Source: a bacterium (GTDB lineage Bacteria > UBP15 > UBA6099 > DSWB01). From it: 9,225 nucleotides of DNA. The notes under the pieces are model-generated. The model saw nothing but the letters and a program-made list of their open reading frames with translations, had not been told where the DNA came from and did no database searches. The position numbers and the translations under genes are program-made. The stretch lies in the NCBI GenBank assembly GCA_020061125.1, contig JAGUYV010000405.1, positions 1 through 9,225 of the forward strand, read 5' to 3'. Below are positions 323 through 7,069 of the stretch, in pieces (position 1 is the first letter of the stretch; each line of letters begins with the position of its first letter).

Positions 323-352
323 TTGCACAATCATGCGCACTCGCGGTATAAT
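323..352 (+). promoter_or_regulatory. Sigma70-type promoter for the leader RNA / respiratory operon
   Basis: TTGCAC (323-328) and a perfect TATAAT (347-352) are separated by 18 bp. The -35 box matches the consensus at only three of six positions, while the -10 is ideal. Transcription would start near 359. It is the best promoter-like sequence between the HPP gene and the Rieske gene, so it probably drives both the leader RNA and, by read-through, the operon. Confidence 0.6.
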
Positions 353-535: not shown

Positions 536-1042
536 ATGACCCATGAAAACAATGACAGCGCGCAGCAACAGGGAAAGGAAACATCCCAAACGCCCACCAC
601 GAGCCGGCGCGGGTTCTTGAGCATTGCGGCCATGAGCGCAGGCCTGGTGGTGTCCTTCGGCGCTCTGGGCGGCATCGGCGCGAAGTTCCTCACGCCGCGA
701 AAGAAAACCGGCGGCAAGGTCGAACTGTTCATCGGCAAAGCCGCGTCCATCCCGCAAAACGCCTCGGCCATCGTCCACGATCTCTCGGGCGCGGAGATCA
801 TTGTTTTGAACACGCCCGATGGATTCAAGGCCTTCTCCAATGTTTGCCCGCACCTGGGCTGCCATGTGCATTGGGAAGCTGAAAAGAAGATTTTCTACTG
901 CCCGTGCCACGAGGGCGTGTTCGACGCCGGAGGCATGGCCACGAGCGGCCCGCCAGCCGACGCAAAGCAGAAACTCACCGCCGCGGAAATCAGACATGAC
1001 AAGAATTCAGGAAATCTGTTCCTGGTCACGGAAAGCGCATAA
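536..1042 (+). CDS. Rieske [2Fe-2S] iron-sulfur protein of a bc/b6f-type complex
   Basis: This 168-aa protein is the quinol-oxidising iron-sulfur subunit, membrane-anchored with its cluster on the outer face. The N-terminus has a twin-arginine motif (SRRGFLS, residues 23-29) and a hydrophobic anchor at about 30-52. Rieske box 1 is CPHLGC (104-109) and box 2 is CPCH (122-125). This gives ligands C104, H106, C122 and H125, and a C109-C124 disulfide. A GPP loop is at 138-140. The positions that hold Ser and Tyr after box 2 in high-potential mitochondrial proteins are here G127 and F129, which suggests a low-potential cluster suited to menaquinol. I chose ATG 536 because GGGAG (523-527) sits eight bases upstream; an in-frame TTG at 530 is too close to that site. 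The cytochrome b gene follows after 36 bases. The fold and role are near certain; the quinone type is inferred. Confidence 0.95.
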   Translation: MTHENNDSAQQQGKETSQTPTTSRRGFLSIAAMSAGLVVSFGALGGIGAKFLTPRKKTGGKVELFIGKAASIPQNASAIVHDLSGAEIIVLNTPDGFKAFSNVCPHLGCHVHWEAEKKIFYCPCHEGVFDAGGMATSGPPADAKQKLTAAEIRHDKNSGNLFLVTESA

Positions 1043-1078
1043 CGCGCTTCGGGACACTTTTGCAAAGGACTGCCGCAC

Positions 1079-2152
1079 ATGAGCCGCACAAACACGCAAG
1101 CTGCACAGGACAAAAAAGGGTTCTGGGCCACGGCATTGCCCGTGAACTGGGACGCGCTCAAGGAAATCGGCTCCGAGCCGATTCCCAATCACTTGAAAAA
1201 ATGGTGGTGGTGCCTGGGCGGCACGCCGCTGATTCTGTTCTCGATCCAGGTGGTCACCGGCCTGCTGCTGCTGTTTTATTATGTGCCCAGCGCGGACGGC
1301 GCTTATCAGAGCGTTGACCAGATCACGCATGTGGTGCCCTTCGGCTGGTTCATCAGATCCATGCACAAGTGGTCCGCGAACCTGATGATCGCGGCTGTGT
1401 TCCTGCACACTCTGCGGGTGTTTTTCACAGGCTCGTACCGGTCGCCGCGCCAGTTGACCTGGGTCGCCGGGGTGTTCCTTCTCGGGGGCACGCTGGTGTT
1501 CGGGTTCACGGGCTACAGCCTGGTGTACGAGCAGATGAGCTTCTGGGGCGCCACCGTGGCTACGAACATCACCGAAGCCGTGCCGGGGATCGGGCCTTCC
1601 CTGGCCTATCTGATGCGCGGGGGCAAAGAGGTGGGCGCCAACACCCTCACCCGATTCTTCGTGCTGCACACCGCCATCCTGCCCGTTGCGGTCATGGGCC
1701 TCATCGCCGTCCACATCCTCCTCATCCGCCTGCACGGGGTCACGGAACTGTATTTCGACGGTGAAGTCATCCCCGAGGAAAAGAAATACTTCAAATTCTG
1801 GCCGGACCACATCAGCACCGAAACCATCGTGGCCCTTGTGGTCATCTACCTGCTGGTGATCCTGTCGCTGGTGTTTCCGGCGCACCTGGGCGAACCCGCC
1901 AACCCCAACCAGACGCCCCTTCACATCAAACCCGAGTGGTACTTCTACTTCAGTTTCCGCATGCTCAAGCTCACCGCGCTCAAGGTCAATGTCATCATCA
2001 CGGGCGTGCTGCTGGCCGGGCTTATCTTCTGGCCCATGATCGAGGATTTTCTGCATGCGCGCCTGCGCATCCCGCGCAACATTTCCATCGTCATCGGCAT
2101 CATCGGATTCATCATATTTCTGGGATTCACCCTGTGGGAATCCTTTGCATGA
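1079..2152 (+). CDS. Cytochrome b, fused b6/subunit-IV type with haem ci cysteine
   Basis: This 357-aa membrane protein oxidises quinol together with the Rieske subunit and carries electrons across the membrane. I see about seven hydrophobic helices (near 46-68, 97-117, 126-146, 195-216, 247-267, 303-321 and 334-352), matching b6 (four) plus subunit IV (three) in one chain. Haem ligands are H96/H110 (14 apart) and H197/H212 (15 apart); the 15 spacing is that of b6f rather than mitochondrial bc1. C45, in WWWCLGG, lies 51 residues before H96, exactly as Cys35 lies before His86 in cytochrome b6, where it binds haem ci covalently. The Qo-site PEWY motif is at 285-288. AAAGGA (1064-1069) lies nine bases before the ATG. 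The gene sits between the Rieske and octahaem genes, with no cytochrome f or c1 gene beside it. Confidence 0.95.
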   Translation: MSRTNTQAAQDKKGFWATALPVNWDALKEIGSEPIPNHLKKWWWCLGGTPLILFSIQVVTGLLLLFYYVPSADGAYQSVDQITHVVPFGWFIRSMHKWSANLMIAAVFLHTLRVFFTGSYRSPRQLTWVAGVFLLGGTLVFGFTGYSLVYEQMSFWGATVATNITEAVPGIGPSLAYLMRGGKEVGANTLTRFFVLHTAILPVAVMGLIAVHILLIRLHGVTELYFDGEVIPEEKKYFKFWPDHISTETIVALVVIYLLVILSLVFPAHLGEPANPNQTPLHIKPEWYFYFSFRMLKLTALKVNVIITGVLLAGLIFWPMIEDFLHARLRIPRNISIVIGIIGFIIFLGFTLWESFA

Positions 2153-2197
2153 CCCCAACACACAAGGACAAGAGGAGCTGAAAGGAGAAACACGAAC

Positions 2198-3826
2198 ATG
2201 TCGCTGAACGCGAAACGCTGGGTCATCGCCGCGCTGTCCATCCTGCTTCTGGGCAGCCTGCTCGTGGTGGGCTACCGGGAGGTAAAACGCCAGTTGCCCG
2301 AGGAAGAACAAAAACCCGTGGTCACCAAAGCCAACGAGGGGTGCGTGAACTGCCACAAGCAGGCGTCGCCCGCGCTGGTCATGGAATGGGAACATTCGCT
2401 GCACGCCAAGCAGGGCGTGGGCTGCTATGACTGCCACAAGGCCGAACAGAGCGAGCCTGCGGCCTGGACGCACCAGGGCGCGGTGATTTCCACCCTGGTC
2501 ACGCCCAAGGATTGTTCCGAATGCCACCCGCGGGAATTCGAGGAATTTTCCGCCAGCCACCACGCCAAGGCCGGAGAAATTCTGGCCAGCCTCGACAATG
2601 TGCTGGCGGAAAAAGCAGAAGGCCGGCCCGGCGACCCGTACGCCGCCGTCAACGGCTGCTGGCAGTGCCACGGCACCATTCTTGACTTCGAACGGGACGC
2701 CAAGGGCGAAATTCTGCGCGCCAAAGTGGAAATCAAGGACGGCAAACAGGGCATGAAGCAGGAAAGCCAGCCCGTGTTCAACCACAAGACCTGGCCGAAC
2801 AGCGGCATGGGCCGCCTCAACCCCGACGGCTCGCGCGGCAGTTGCCACGCCTGCCACAGCCGCCACGACTTCAATTCCCGCACCGCGCGCCACCCCGACA
2901 ACTGCGGCAAGTGCCACATGGGGCCTGACCACCCGCAGATCGAAATTTACAACGAATCCAAGCACGGCATCGCGTTCCGCGCCAACGAGTCCCGCATGAA
3001 CCTGGACAAAAAAGGCTCCTGGGTTCTGGGCGTTGACTACTCGGCCGCGCCCACCTGCGCCACCTGCCACATCAGCGCCTACAAGACCCCGCAGGGCGAA
3101 CATGTGGCCAACAACCACGATGTGGGCAACCGCATTTCCTGGACCCTGCGGCCCGAGGTTTCAAAGAAAATCAATGATGTAATTTATGAAGACGGGTACA
3201 GGGAAACCCTCACCGACGACAAGCCCCTGCCCAAACCCGGCGACACCGTGGATTCCGTGTACAAAACCGTCGAAAACTTCAAGATGGTTACCCGGACCAA
3301 GCCGCGCAAGGTCAAGTCCGTTCTCACATGGCAGCAGCGCCGCCAGGACATGAAAGGCGTGTGCTACAGTTGCCACGAAACCTCGCACACCGAGAACTTC
3401 TATCAGCAGTACGACGGTCTGGTGAATCTTTACAACGAAAAATTCGCCAAGCCCAGCATGCAGATCATGACGGACCTCAAGGCCGACGGCCTGCTGCCCG
3501 GATCGCCGTTCACCAGCAAGGTGCAGTGGACCTACTATGAGCTGTGGCACCACGAGGGCCGCCGCGCGCGCCACGGCGCGTCCATGATGGGGCCGGACTT
3601 CACGCACTGGCACGGCACTTACGAGGTGGCCAAGCACTTCTACACCCACTTCCTGCCCGAAGTCGTCGAGCATGCCGCCAAGCTCGGAGGCCCGGAAATG
3701 GAAGCCAAGTACGATGAAAAGATTAAAGCCCTGCTCGAAGGAGACGATCACCTCTGGCTCAAGGGGCTTACACAGGAAGAGATGGACGCGCTCAAGCGCG
3801 AGAAGGAACTGCGTTACGGCAAATAG
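2198..3826 (+). CDS. Membrane-anchored octahaem cytochrome c, hydroxylamine oxidoreductase (HAO) family
   Basis: This 542-aa protein has eight CXXCH haem motifs, beginning at residues 49, 76, 106, 154, 216, 236, 287 and 389. HAO-family signatures are present: the stretch around CHSRHDF, CGKCHMGPDHPQIEIY and ESKHGIAF (216-260), then NFYQQYDGLVNLYNEKFAKP (400-419) and a C-terminal helical region. In this family the fourth motif (CWQCH, 154-158) normally binds the five-coordinate catalytic haem. The N-terminus is a hydrophobic segment (about 8-25) followed by charged residues and no clear cleavage site, so it is probably an uncleaved anchor with the haem domain outside. Unlike octahaem nitrite reductases of the ONR type, no motif is CXXCK. 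The expected position of the P460 cross-linking Tyr seems to be F468, pointing to a reductase (nitrite, NO or hydroxylamine) rather than an oxidase; this rests on alignment from memory. GGAG (2184-2187) precedes the ATG by ten bases, and the gene is 45 bases after the cytochrome b stop. Confidence 0.92.
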   Translation: MSLNAKRWVIAALSILLLGSLLVVGYREVKRQLPEEEQKPVVTKANEGCVNCHKQASPALVMEWEHSLHAKQGVGCYDCHKAEQSEPAAWTHQGAVISTLVTPKDCSECHPREFEEFSASHHAKAGEILASLDNVLAEKAEGRPGDPYAAVNGCWQCHGTILDFERDAKGEILRAKVEIKDGKQGMKQESQPVFNHKTWPNSGMGRLNPDGSRGSCHACHSRHDFNSRTARHPDNCGKCHMGPDHPQIEIYNESKHGIAFRANESRMNLDKKGSWVLGVDYSAAPTCATCHISAYKTPQGEHVANNHDVGNRISWTLRPEVSKKINDVIYEDGYRETLTDDKPLPKPGDTVDSVYKTVENFKMVTRTKPRKVKSVLTWQQRRQDMKGVCYSCHETSHTENFYQQYDGLVNLYNEKFAKPSMQIMTDLKADGLLPGSPFTSKVQWTYYELWHHEGRRARHGASMMGPDFTHWHGTYEVAKHFYTHFLPEVVEHAAKLGGPEMEAKYDEKIKALLEGDDHLWLKGLTQEEMDALKREKELRYGK

Positions 3827-3880: not shown

Positions 3881-3917
3881 AACGCCTGCGGCCAGCAAGG
3901 TCCGCAGGCGTTTTTTT
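3881..3917 (+). terminator. Terminator of the Rieske/cytochrome b/octahaem operon
   Basis: A perfect nine-pair stem, CGCCTGCGG (3883-3891) with CCGCAGGCG (3902-3910), is followed by seven T (3911-3917). Flanking AA/TT could extend it to eleven pairs. A second GC-rich hairpin (GCGCCC 3835-3840 with GGGCGC 3859-3864) lies between the stop codon and the terminator. Confidence 0.9.
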
Positions 3918-5380: not shown

Positions 5381-7069
5381 ATGCCGCGCTCCACGCCCGT
5401 TACACTCATACTATCCGTTGTTCTCTGCCTTTTTTGTATGTTTTCTTATAACCCGGCGGCCCGCGCGGCTTACACCGGCGGCGAAGTCGTGACCGCCAAA
5501 CTGGCCGCAAGAATGCGCGCCCTCATCAGCCGGGACGATGTTACACCGGAGTACCAAGCCAAAGTCGAGGCCGCTCTTGACCGCACCTTCGACAAGGCCT
5601 GCGTGCGCGACTTCCCGGCCATGGTGCTTGCCCTGTGGGCGCCCGCAACAGCCGTGGACAACGCCAAAGCCGAAGCCCTGCGCCTGGCCGACAGCCTCGG
5701 ACTGGAAAGAAAAAATCTGGCCTCCCTGCAAACCCGGCGCGCGGAAAACACCGCAGCCCGTGATGCCGCCGTTACGCTCCTTCCGAAAAAGCAGGAGGCA
5801 AGAAAACAGATCGAGCCGGATTACGCCGCAGCCCAGGCCGCTCTTGACGCTTCCAGGCGCCAGGTCCAGTCCCTCATTGATATAGACGATTCAGCAAGGA
5901 AAAATGTTCGCTCCGCAAAAGAAAAACTCCAGGCGCTGGATCAGCGGGAACAAAGAATAGATGCCAGACTCCAGGTTTTGAAACAGGCCACGGAAAACTG
6001 CCAGGCACCGGAAACCACAGAACCCGAAACCAAAGACGAGACCGCTAATTCCGAAAACAAAAATGAAAACATCTCCGGTCAGGAGATTCTTGAGGAAATC
6101 AAGAAGTTGATGCTTGAGCTTGACGCCCTGCCTGCGGCCAGAGCCGCACTCGAAACAGAGCGCACAGCAGCGGAGCAAGCCCTGTCCGCGGCTTCGGATA
6201 ATCTTGCCGCGGGACAAAAGCGGCTTGCCGCAGACAGAGCCACATTCGACGATGTGGCGGATCGCCTGGGTGAGGTCAAAAAGCGCATCGCGGATCTCGA
6301 ATCGGAAATCGTGCAACGGAACGCAAGGGAAAAGGACCTTGATGCGCAAATCACGGAGTCCTTGACTCTGATCGCCAATCTTGAGGTCAAGCTGGCCGAG
6401 GCCAAGCGCGTGGCGGACACGATTTCCGACAAGGCGCTGGCCGAATACAAGGCTGCGCTCAAGCCCTTTGACAACTGGGGCTGCGCGTCCGGCATGGCCA
6501 TGGTCGAGGGCACATTCTGCATGGATATCTATGAGTACCCCAACCGCAAGGGCGACCGTCCGGCCGTGGGGGTGTCCTGGACCGATGCGGAACAGGCCTG
6601 CCGCGATGCGGGCAAGCGCCTGTGCACGGACGCGGAGTGGGCTTTCGCCTGCGCCGGGCCGGACTGTTTCATGCGCCACACGCCGAACGATTACAGCAGT
6701 GAAACATGCAATCTGGGCCTGGGCTTCTACGGCGAAGCCGGGCCGCGCATCTCGGGCTGGAGGCCGGACATGCAGGAAACCGGCCCCTACGACGACACCG
6801 TGAATCCCGAGCCTGCGGCCGGGGCCTCGTTCTTCGCGTGCGACAGCCCCTACGGCCCTGCGGATCTTGTCGGCAATCTCTGGGAATGGATCGCGGACAC
6901 GCACAAGAGGCCCAATGTGCATGGCGTGCGCATCGGGGGCAACCCCAGCCAGTTCGAGCCGAACTGCGGTGACGCCTCCTGGTACGACGCCTCCACCACC
7001 CTGCCCCACCTCGGCTTCCGCTGCTGCGCCGATCCCCGCAGCATGTTCGCCGAAACCGCATTGAAATAA
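5381..7069 (+). CDS. Secreted coiled-coil protein with C-terminal SUMF1/FGE-sulfatase-like domain
   Basis: The 562-aa product has a signal peptide (hydrophobic 7-22; likely cleavage after ARA, residue 29). Two long Ala/Glu/Lys/Arg-rich helical stretches likely to form coiled coils (about 95-205 and 235-355) are split by an acidic, Asn/Thr-rich linker (210-231). The C-terminal domain (about 368-550) has SUMF1-fold signatures: FCMDIYEYPN (379-388), GKRLCTDAEWAFAC (411-424), GNLWEW (498-503) and GFRCC (545-549). True formylglycine-generating enzymes use a Cys pair followed by Arg-Tyr-Arg before GFRC. Here that region has only C529 and no RYR, so sulfatase activation is doubtful and the domain may act as a binding or structural fold. 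No sulfatase gene lies nearby. The ATG has only a weak G-rich stretch upstream (5363-5368). The gene is divergent from the sigma factor and appears to be transcribed alone. Function unknown; an envelope-spanning or surface role is a guess. Confidence 0.85.
   Translation: MPRSTPVTLILSVVLCLFCMFSYNPAARAAYTGGEVVTAKLAARMRALISRDDVTPEYQAKVEAALDRTFDKACVRDFPAMVLALWAPATAVDNAKAEALRLADSLGLERKNLASLQTRRAENTAARDAAVTLLPKKQEARKQIEPDYAAAQAALDASRRQVQSLIDIDDSARKNVRSAKEKLQALDQREQRIDARLQVLKQATENCQAPETTEPETKDETANSENKNENISGQEILEEIKKLMLELDALPAARAALETERTAAEQALSAASDNLAAGQKRLAADRATFDDVADRLGEVKKRIADLESEIVQRNAREKDLDAQITESLTLIANLEVKLAEAKRVADTISDKALAEYKAALKPFDNWGCASGMAMVEGTFCMDIYEYPNRKGDRPAVGVSWTDAEQACRDAGKRLCTDAEWAFACAGPDCFMRHTPNDYSSETCNLGLGFYGEAGPRISGWRPDMQETGPYDDTVNPEPAAGASFFACDSPYGPADLVGNLWEWIADTHKRPNVHGVRIGGNPSQFEPNCGDASWYDASTTLPHLGFRCCADPRSMFAETALK

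Follow-up and report, generated by a model that had tools for sequence, protein, structure and literature searches.

Octahaem c-type cytochromes encoded next to Rieske and cytochrome b genes have been described in two settings. In Caldithrix abyssi, the cluster Cabys_2564-2556 contains genes for a Rieske protein (Cabys_2558), a cytochrome b (Cabys_2557) and an octahaem "epsilon-Hao" (Cabys_2556), and the authors of that study proposed in 2017 that the octahaem protein receives its electrons from Rieske/cytochrome b, either directly or via NapM, in a process that may be electrogenic (PMC5317091). In anammox bacteria, the kuste4569-4574 locus, also called R/b-3, combines such proteins with an NAD(P) oxidoreductase and encodes b6 and subunit IV by separate genes (PMC12954380). 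Here, we describe a set of three genes for a Rieske protein, a cytochrome b and an octahaem cytochrome resembling hydroxylamine oxidoreductase (HAO), hereafter OCC, in a 9,225-nucleotide stretch of bacterial DNA (contig JAGUYV010000405.1 of assembly GCA_020061125.1), which we call the window. The original prediction, made from this DNA alone, held that an anchored OCC replaces cytochrome c1/f and acts as both electron acceptor and catalytic subunit of a quinol:nitrogen-oxide oxidoreductase, a mechanism that is plausible, yet was anticipated for Caldithrix. What is new here is the breadth of the module, its separation from the anammox complex, an anchor specific to the complex and a predicted low-potential Rieske cluster.

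The Rieske/cytochrome b/OCC module and its relatives

The three genes lie on the plus strand in the order Rieske, cytochrome b, OCC, with intergenic gaps of 36 and 45 bases, and the operon ends in a terminator hairpin of -26 kcal/mol (z -6.4) that was absent from the list of a simple scanner; this layout is as originally predicted. Pfam matches agree with the assignments, with PF00355 (1.3e-10) for the Rieske protein, Cytochrome_B PF00033 (8.3e-54) and Cytochrom_B_C PF00032 for the cytochrome b, and multihaem/cytochrome c554 families for the OCC.

A search for the same gene triple across genomes, proposed with the original prediction, found it widely in non-anammox hosts. With the OCC as query, a scan of named genomes yielded 80 loci, 26 of which carry Rieske and cytochrome b genes upstream of the OCC gene on the same strand (the L017 contig begins within cytochrome b), and L122 is one more. 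In these 27 triples, the window included, the gap between cytochrome b and OCC is 0 to 64 bases (median 16), and nine Calditrichota beyond the 27 loci carry the triple in the same order. About a dozen phyla are represented by the host labels, namely, Ignavibacteriota, Calditrichota, Latescibacterota, Zixiibacteriota, Binatota, Acidobacteriota, Gemmatimonadota, Myxococcota, Fidelibacterota, Planctomycetota, Bacteroidota, Chlorobiota and KSB1, of which single labels may be wrong because nearly all hosts are metagenome-assembled genomes. In the triples, the cytochromes b group in a single clade (support 97) apart from those of anammox bacteria and of a second complex in the host, and their distances correlate with those of the OCCs (r = 0.89 overall; 0.61 in the main clade, p = 0.0015). 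That the three genes are mere neighbours with no joint complex has nothing in its favour except the lacking biochemistry, and the recurrent order, the co-divergence and the co-occurrence of the anchor described below make it highly improbable. Altogether, these sequence comparisons indicate that the triple is a real, widespread three-subunit module and not a chance neighbourhood.

The closest precedent is the Caldithrix cluster. A single-contig 4.98-Mb Calditrichota genome carries NapM, NapA, ferredoxin, NapH-like, Rieske, cytochrome b and OCC genes in an order that matches the published Caldithrix abyssi cluster, and its products are 31% (OCC), 44% (cytochrome b) and 29% (Rieske) identical to those of the window. 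The two loci agree in the identity and order of the three genes, in having no c1 and in the type of anchor on the OCC; they differ in that the Caldithrix triple is located inside a Nap cluster and has Val at the b6-type Cys position, whereas the window operon stands alone and has Cys45. By these homologous, collinear genes and the anchored OCC, the window holds a Caldithrix-type module, with Caldithrix abyssi as a real precedent. The suggestion of a distinct respiratory complex outside anammox bacteria stands as regards the host, but the idea itself had already been published for Caldithrix abyssi (2017, PMC5317091).

The parallel originally drawn with kuste4569-4574 needed correction. The anammox R/b-3 complex likewise has a Rieske protein, a b6-like cytochrome b, an HAO-like OCC and no cytochrome f; however, it differs in its split b6/subunit IV, an extra multihaem cytochrome, an NAD(P) oxidoreductase, an OCC of the HAOr branch and a high-potential Rieske protein. 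In kuste4569-4574-like loci of Kuenenia hertensis (L131) and Scalindua, a hexahaem cytochrome, seen in L131 and L132, accompanies an OCC that groups with HAOr in the HAO branch; neither a hexahaem cytochrome nor an NAD(P) oxidoreductase gene is present in the window. Orthology of the window OCC with kuste4574 was rejected, as the HAO-family trees separate the two with support of 100, and on this evidence the parallel is only an analogy. Separately, Kuenenia and Scalindua also encode OCCs about 60% identical to that of the window (L088-L091), with signal peptides or lipoboxes and no adjoining Rieske/cytochrome b genes, and in Kuenenia hertensis a frame of more than 800 aa (L095) seems to fuse an HAO-like OCC to an N-terminal cupredoxin-looking domain.

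As for the quinol-oxidising part, both Rieske ligand motifs and the PEWY-type quinol-oxidation (Qo) motif of cytochrome b are present, as expected of a cytochrome bc pair, and KPEW, as PEWY or PEWF, occurs in every triple that covers the Qo region. The nearest PDB relatives of the window cytochrome b are cytochromes b6, and Cys45, aligned with b6, places it by sequence on the b6f-type sub-branch; this Cys is found in most, not all, relatives. As predicted, no cytochrome c1 or f gene was found for the complex. The window contains neither, and searches of the 78.8%-complete host genome gave no cytochrome c1 match at E<=1 and no cytochrome f match above the cut-off, the single 16-bit sub-cut-off match lying in a 1570-aa frame; because of this level of completeness, absence from the entire genome is unproven. 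Since no c1/f subunit was found, the complex would be neither a canonical bc1 nor a canonical b6f complex.

The Rieske protein itself points to a low potential. At the Tyr position all triples have Phe, and at the Ser position nearly all have Gly (Ala in L048), whereas both Ser and Tyr are present in the Kuste4569-like Rieske protein of L131. The Kuste4569-type protein, with Ser127 and Tyr129, has a potential of +303 mV, and mutant shifts of 130 and 65 mV have been published for the Ser and Tyr positions (quoted in PMC12954380). Because Gly/Ala and Phe replace these residues, the potential of the window cluster is expected to be below +200 mV, and would therefore be compatible with menaquinol.

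The membrane anchor of the octahaem cytochrome

The OCC begins with a predicted non-cleaved transmembrane helix of fixed geometry, in which a K[RQ] or QQ pair is followed by exactly 20 residues and then Glu. This motif is present in 36/36 OCCs encoded beside Rieske/cytochrome b genes and in 0/84 OCCs without them, and a recount restricted to loci whose known upstream DNA spans 1.2 kb or more gave 36/36 versus 0/61; the proposed N-terminal anchoring of the OCC is borne out, and the anchor tracks Rieske/cytochrome b. By eye, the N-termini of OCCs without these partners are mostly signal peptide- or lipoprotein-like. Mean identity of the anchor block is 68% among main-clade complex OCCs versus 9% among sister OCCs, with similar within-group identities of the mature domain (72% and 71%, respectively). 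In a tree built excluding the N-terminus, the anchor agreed with Rieske/cytochrome b in all 5/5 independent pairs that lie on supported branches (p = 0.0625 by sign test, the lowest value that five pairs can give). Altogether, this co-occurrence is the best evidence that the OCC would be a membrane subunit of a Rieske/cytochrome b complex, and the anchor offers a simple sequence marker separating complex-bound from soluble OCCs in metagenomes.

In Desulfobulbaceae and Campylobacterota, the OCCs of a sister clade (L051-L082) are paired upstream with tetrahaem, NrfC and NrfD genes, not with Rieske/cytochrome b, which suggests that quinol modules have been swapped within one OCC family. These OCCs are 45-49% identical to that of the window and likewise accompany a quinol-linked membrane module, often adjacent to NapA, but the module is of the NrfCD type and the OCC has a signal peptide and no anchor; a comparable tetrahaem/NrfC/NrfD/OCC cluster is TDIS_0606-0609 (PMC5276818). 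The Campylobacterota epsilon-Hao with HaoC has a partner of the NapC type, and no such gene is present in the window operon.

Active site and proposed electron path

The OCC contains eight CXXCH motifs, at residues 49, 76, 106, 154, 216, 236, 287 and 389, and since all 8/8 are CXXCH the CXXCK active-site haem motif of TvNiR/TaNiR is not found in it. Its top solved relative is 4qo5 (E 1.5e-40), followed by the Kuenenia and Nitrosomonas HAOs. The fold predicted from 33 sequences (mean pLDDT of 78) matched 4qo5 with a Z of 22.6 over 410 residues at 28% identity, and the HAOs with Z of 15-19; the match spans residues 36-500, with helix 3-32 additional. The eight haem motifs and this modelled HAO fold place the protein in the HAO/OCC fold superfamily. 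Relative to 4qo5, the Ignicoccus OCC and closest solved fold, the window protein differs in that the former is archaeal, has no aligned transmembrane anchor and carries PDV for PDH in the active-site motif. Hydroxylamine oxidoreductase and HAOr (4n4j, 1fgj, 6h5l) share the eight haems, the fold (Z 18-19) and the active-site Asp-His but belong to another tree branch, and the window OCC differs from them by its anchor and Rieske/cytochrome b operon and, as in HAOr, by having no crosslinking Tyr. Window positions 3167-3325 (OCC residues 324-376) encode an insertion, predicted to be beta-rich, that lies between haem 7 and haem 8 and is apparently absent from the OCCs of about 440-450 aa of some Calditrichota.

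The residue that bears most on direction is the crosslinking Tyr467 of Nitrosomonas HAO, whose column was located by aligning the Kuenenia and Nitrosomonas HAOs. HAOr, both R/b-3 OCCs and every complex OCC that is readable at this column have Trp there, among them the window protein; this residue, Trp471, does not vary among 33 aligned OCCs, nor does the haem-4 region, and the Tyr crosslink to the active-site haem that marks hydroxylamine oxidoreductase proper is lost. A NapA gene lies next to the triple in relatives from Chlorobiota, Bacteroidales, Planctomycetota and Calditrichota (L083, L081, L074, L009 and the Caldithrix cluster), and NapA is also found beside sister NrfCD-type clusters. 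Because the crosslinking Tyr is Trp and relatives adjoin NapA, reduction, probably of nitrite, appears likelier than hydroxylamine oxidation, and the reductive activity originally proposed fits these features. A system running in reverse, in which the OCC would draw electrons from hydroxylamine, hydrazine or some other donor and deliver them to the quinone pool, shares its fold with HAO and hydrazine dehydrogenase, and reverse operation of Rieske/cytochrome b complexes is possible in principle; we regard it as improbable, given the neighbouring Nap genes of relatives and given that the Tyr kept in 6/6 HAO-type anammox paralogues compared is replaced here, as in HAOr, which without the crosslink slowly reduces nitrite to NO (PMC12485887).

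We therefore lean, with somewhat better than even confidence, towards a b6f-like quinol-oxidising complex in which the anchored OCC takes the place of c1/f and reduces a nitrogen oxide. From the sequences, we infer a physical complex in which cytochrome b would oxidise quinol, probably menaquinol, at its Qo site, the first electron passing from the low-potential Rieske cluster directly to the OCC haems and the second being recycled via the b haems in a Q-cycle that would contribute to proton-motive force. At haem 4, on the periplasmic side, a nitrogen oxide would then be reduced, most likely nitrite, with hydroxylamine or NO possible. More tentatively, and with slightly less than even confidence, this may be a self-contained three-subunit Q-cycle complex distributed across at least a dozen phyla, with the catalytic OCC as the anchored high-potential subunit, so that quinol:nitrite reduction would be directly electrogenic and need no c1/f or soluble carrier. 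Periplasmic nitrite ammonification is usually fed by NapC/NrfH-type quinol dehydrogenases, which are themselves non-energy-conserving. If the proposal is true, many uncultured bacteria from soil, sediment, groundwater and hydrothermal habitats would gain extra proton-motive force per nitrite reduced, and the energetics assigned to nitrate ammonification would change.

Several points weigh against this proposal. The structure prediction covers the OCC chain alone, and the anchor motif was defined after the sequences had been inspected. The HAOs known so far form trimers and cytochrome bc complexes form dimers, a mismatch in stoichiometry. NapA, NarG and NrfA were not found in the 78.8%-complete host genome, so the nitrite source would be external or encoded in the missing 21%; the matches were formate-dehydrogenase-like and NuoG-like Mo proteins and, for NrfA, weak multihaem matches. 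In addition, Kuste4574 could not be modelled in its complex by the authors of PMC12954380.

The missing nitrate and nitrite reductase genes would also fit an OCC acting on another substrate, such as a sulfur oxyanion, or in NO detoxification, with the nitrogen link of relatives being secondary, and octahaem cytochromes are broad in substrate specificity (PMC5276818). We consider this unlikely, as Nap genes adjoin members of the NrfCD sub-clade as well as members of the Rieske/cytochrome b sub-clade. Somewhat more credible, though still doubtful, is an OCC that serves as an electron relay or hub from the Rieske protein to other periplasmic acceptors (NapA or cytochromes of extracellular electron transfer) and is not a terminal reductase. 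The triple is found within a Nap cluster with tetrahaem NapM in Caldithrix and other relatives, and the host contig C512 carries a large multihaem and porin cluster, as a relay would lead one to expect; against it, the active-site Asp-His and haem-4 region are invariant over the 33 aligned OCCs, the same core is retained in sister OCCs without Rieske/cytochrome b, and 19/27 triple loci have no further CXXCH gene within 5 kb and hence no other c-type cytochrome nearby.

Locus features, neighbouring genes and host

The features of the operon are listed in Table 1. The promoter-like site is no evidence on its own because 2 such sites were found versus 1.1 expected.

Table 1. Positions of operon features in the window
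Feature	Position	Strand	Basis or remark
Weak promoter-like site TGCACA-17-TATAAT, 5' of the Rieske gene	324..352	+	Motif scan
Rieske [2Fe-2S] protein, Tat-type RRGFL motif, N-terminal transmembrane helix	536..1042	+	Pfam
Rieske ligand motif 1, CPHLGC	845..862	+	Motif intact
Rieske ligand motif 2, CPCHEGVFD	899..925	+	Gly and Phe in place of the Ser and Tyr that raise the potential
Cytochrome b, 357 aa, b6 and subunit IV regions on a single chain	1079..2152	+	Pfam, PDB matches
Cys45 of WWWCLGG, aligned with the b6 cysteine holding haem c_n/c_i	1211..1213	+	Alignment
PEWYF quinol-oxidation (Qo) motif	1931..1945	+	Alignment
OCC of HAO/IhOCC fold, 542 aa	2198..3826	+	Pfam, PDB matches, predicted fold
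Non-cleaved N-terminal transmembrane anchor of OCC, predicted helix 3-32	2198..2293	+	Prediction, motif
CWQCH, haem 4 motif, presumed active-site haem	2657..2671	+	HAO alignment, motif order
Asp244-His245, aligned with the HAO distal-pocket Asp-His	2927..2932	+	Invariant (alignment of 33 OCCs)
Trp471 at the HAO crosslinking Tyr position (Nitrosomonas Tyr467)	3608..3610	+	Alignment
Intrinsic terminator closing the three-gene operon	3881..3917 (approx.)	+	GC-rich hairpin, then T-run

An anammox host was rejected, as the host has one OCC versus about a dozen matches in each of two anammox genomes. Neither a cytochrome b match nor a window-type OCC was found in any of six genomes of the host's own order, which suggests lateral acquisition of the module or its loss elsewhere. 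Compared with 50 named genomes, the host RpoD reached at most 56% identity and pointed to no clear phylum, and the host's relatives step from these six genomes of the same order straight to genomes that share only the domain, suggesting a phylum-level lineage that is sparsely sampled. On host contig C512 (L086:4929-19191), a second Rieske/b6/subunit IV set, likewise without c1/f, is surrounded by genes for a porin-like outer-membrane protein and numerous multihaem cytochromes and resembles an extracellular electron transfer island.

Among related loci, a conserved gene of about 205-220 aa with no Pfam match lies directly 3' of the OCC gene in several triples (L004:7615-8235, L005:3398-4021, L009:5234-5905 and L027:5643-6254), and in L007 (7916-9430) and L009 (5942-7483) an alginate-export-like outer-membrane porin gene separates the triple from a NapM-like tetrahaem gene. 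The operon is alone in the window, its flanking genes being HPP and RpoD and not a Nap cluster; the downstream genes are unrelated by Pfam (RpoD on the other strand, an FGE-type protein, a methyltransferase and a hydroxyacid dehydrogenase). Positions 5381-7069 encode a protein whose long N-terminal half is probably a coiled coil and whose C-terminal part is an FGE-sulfatase domain.

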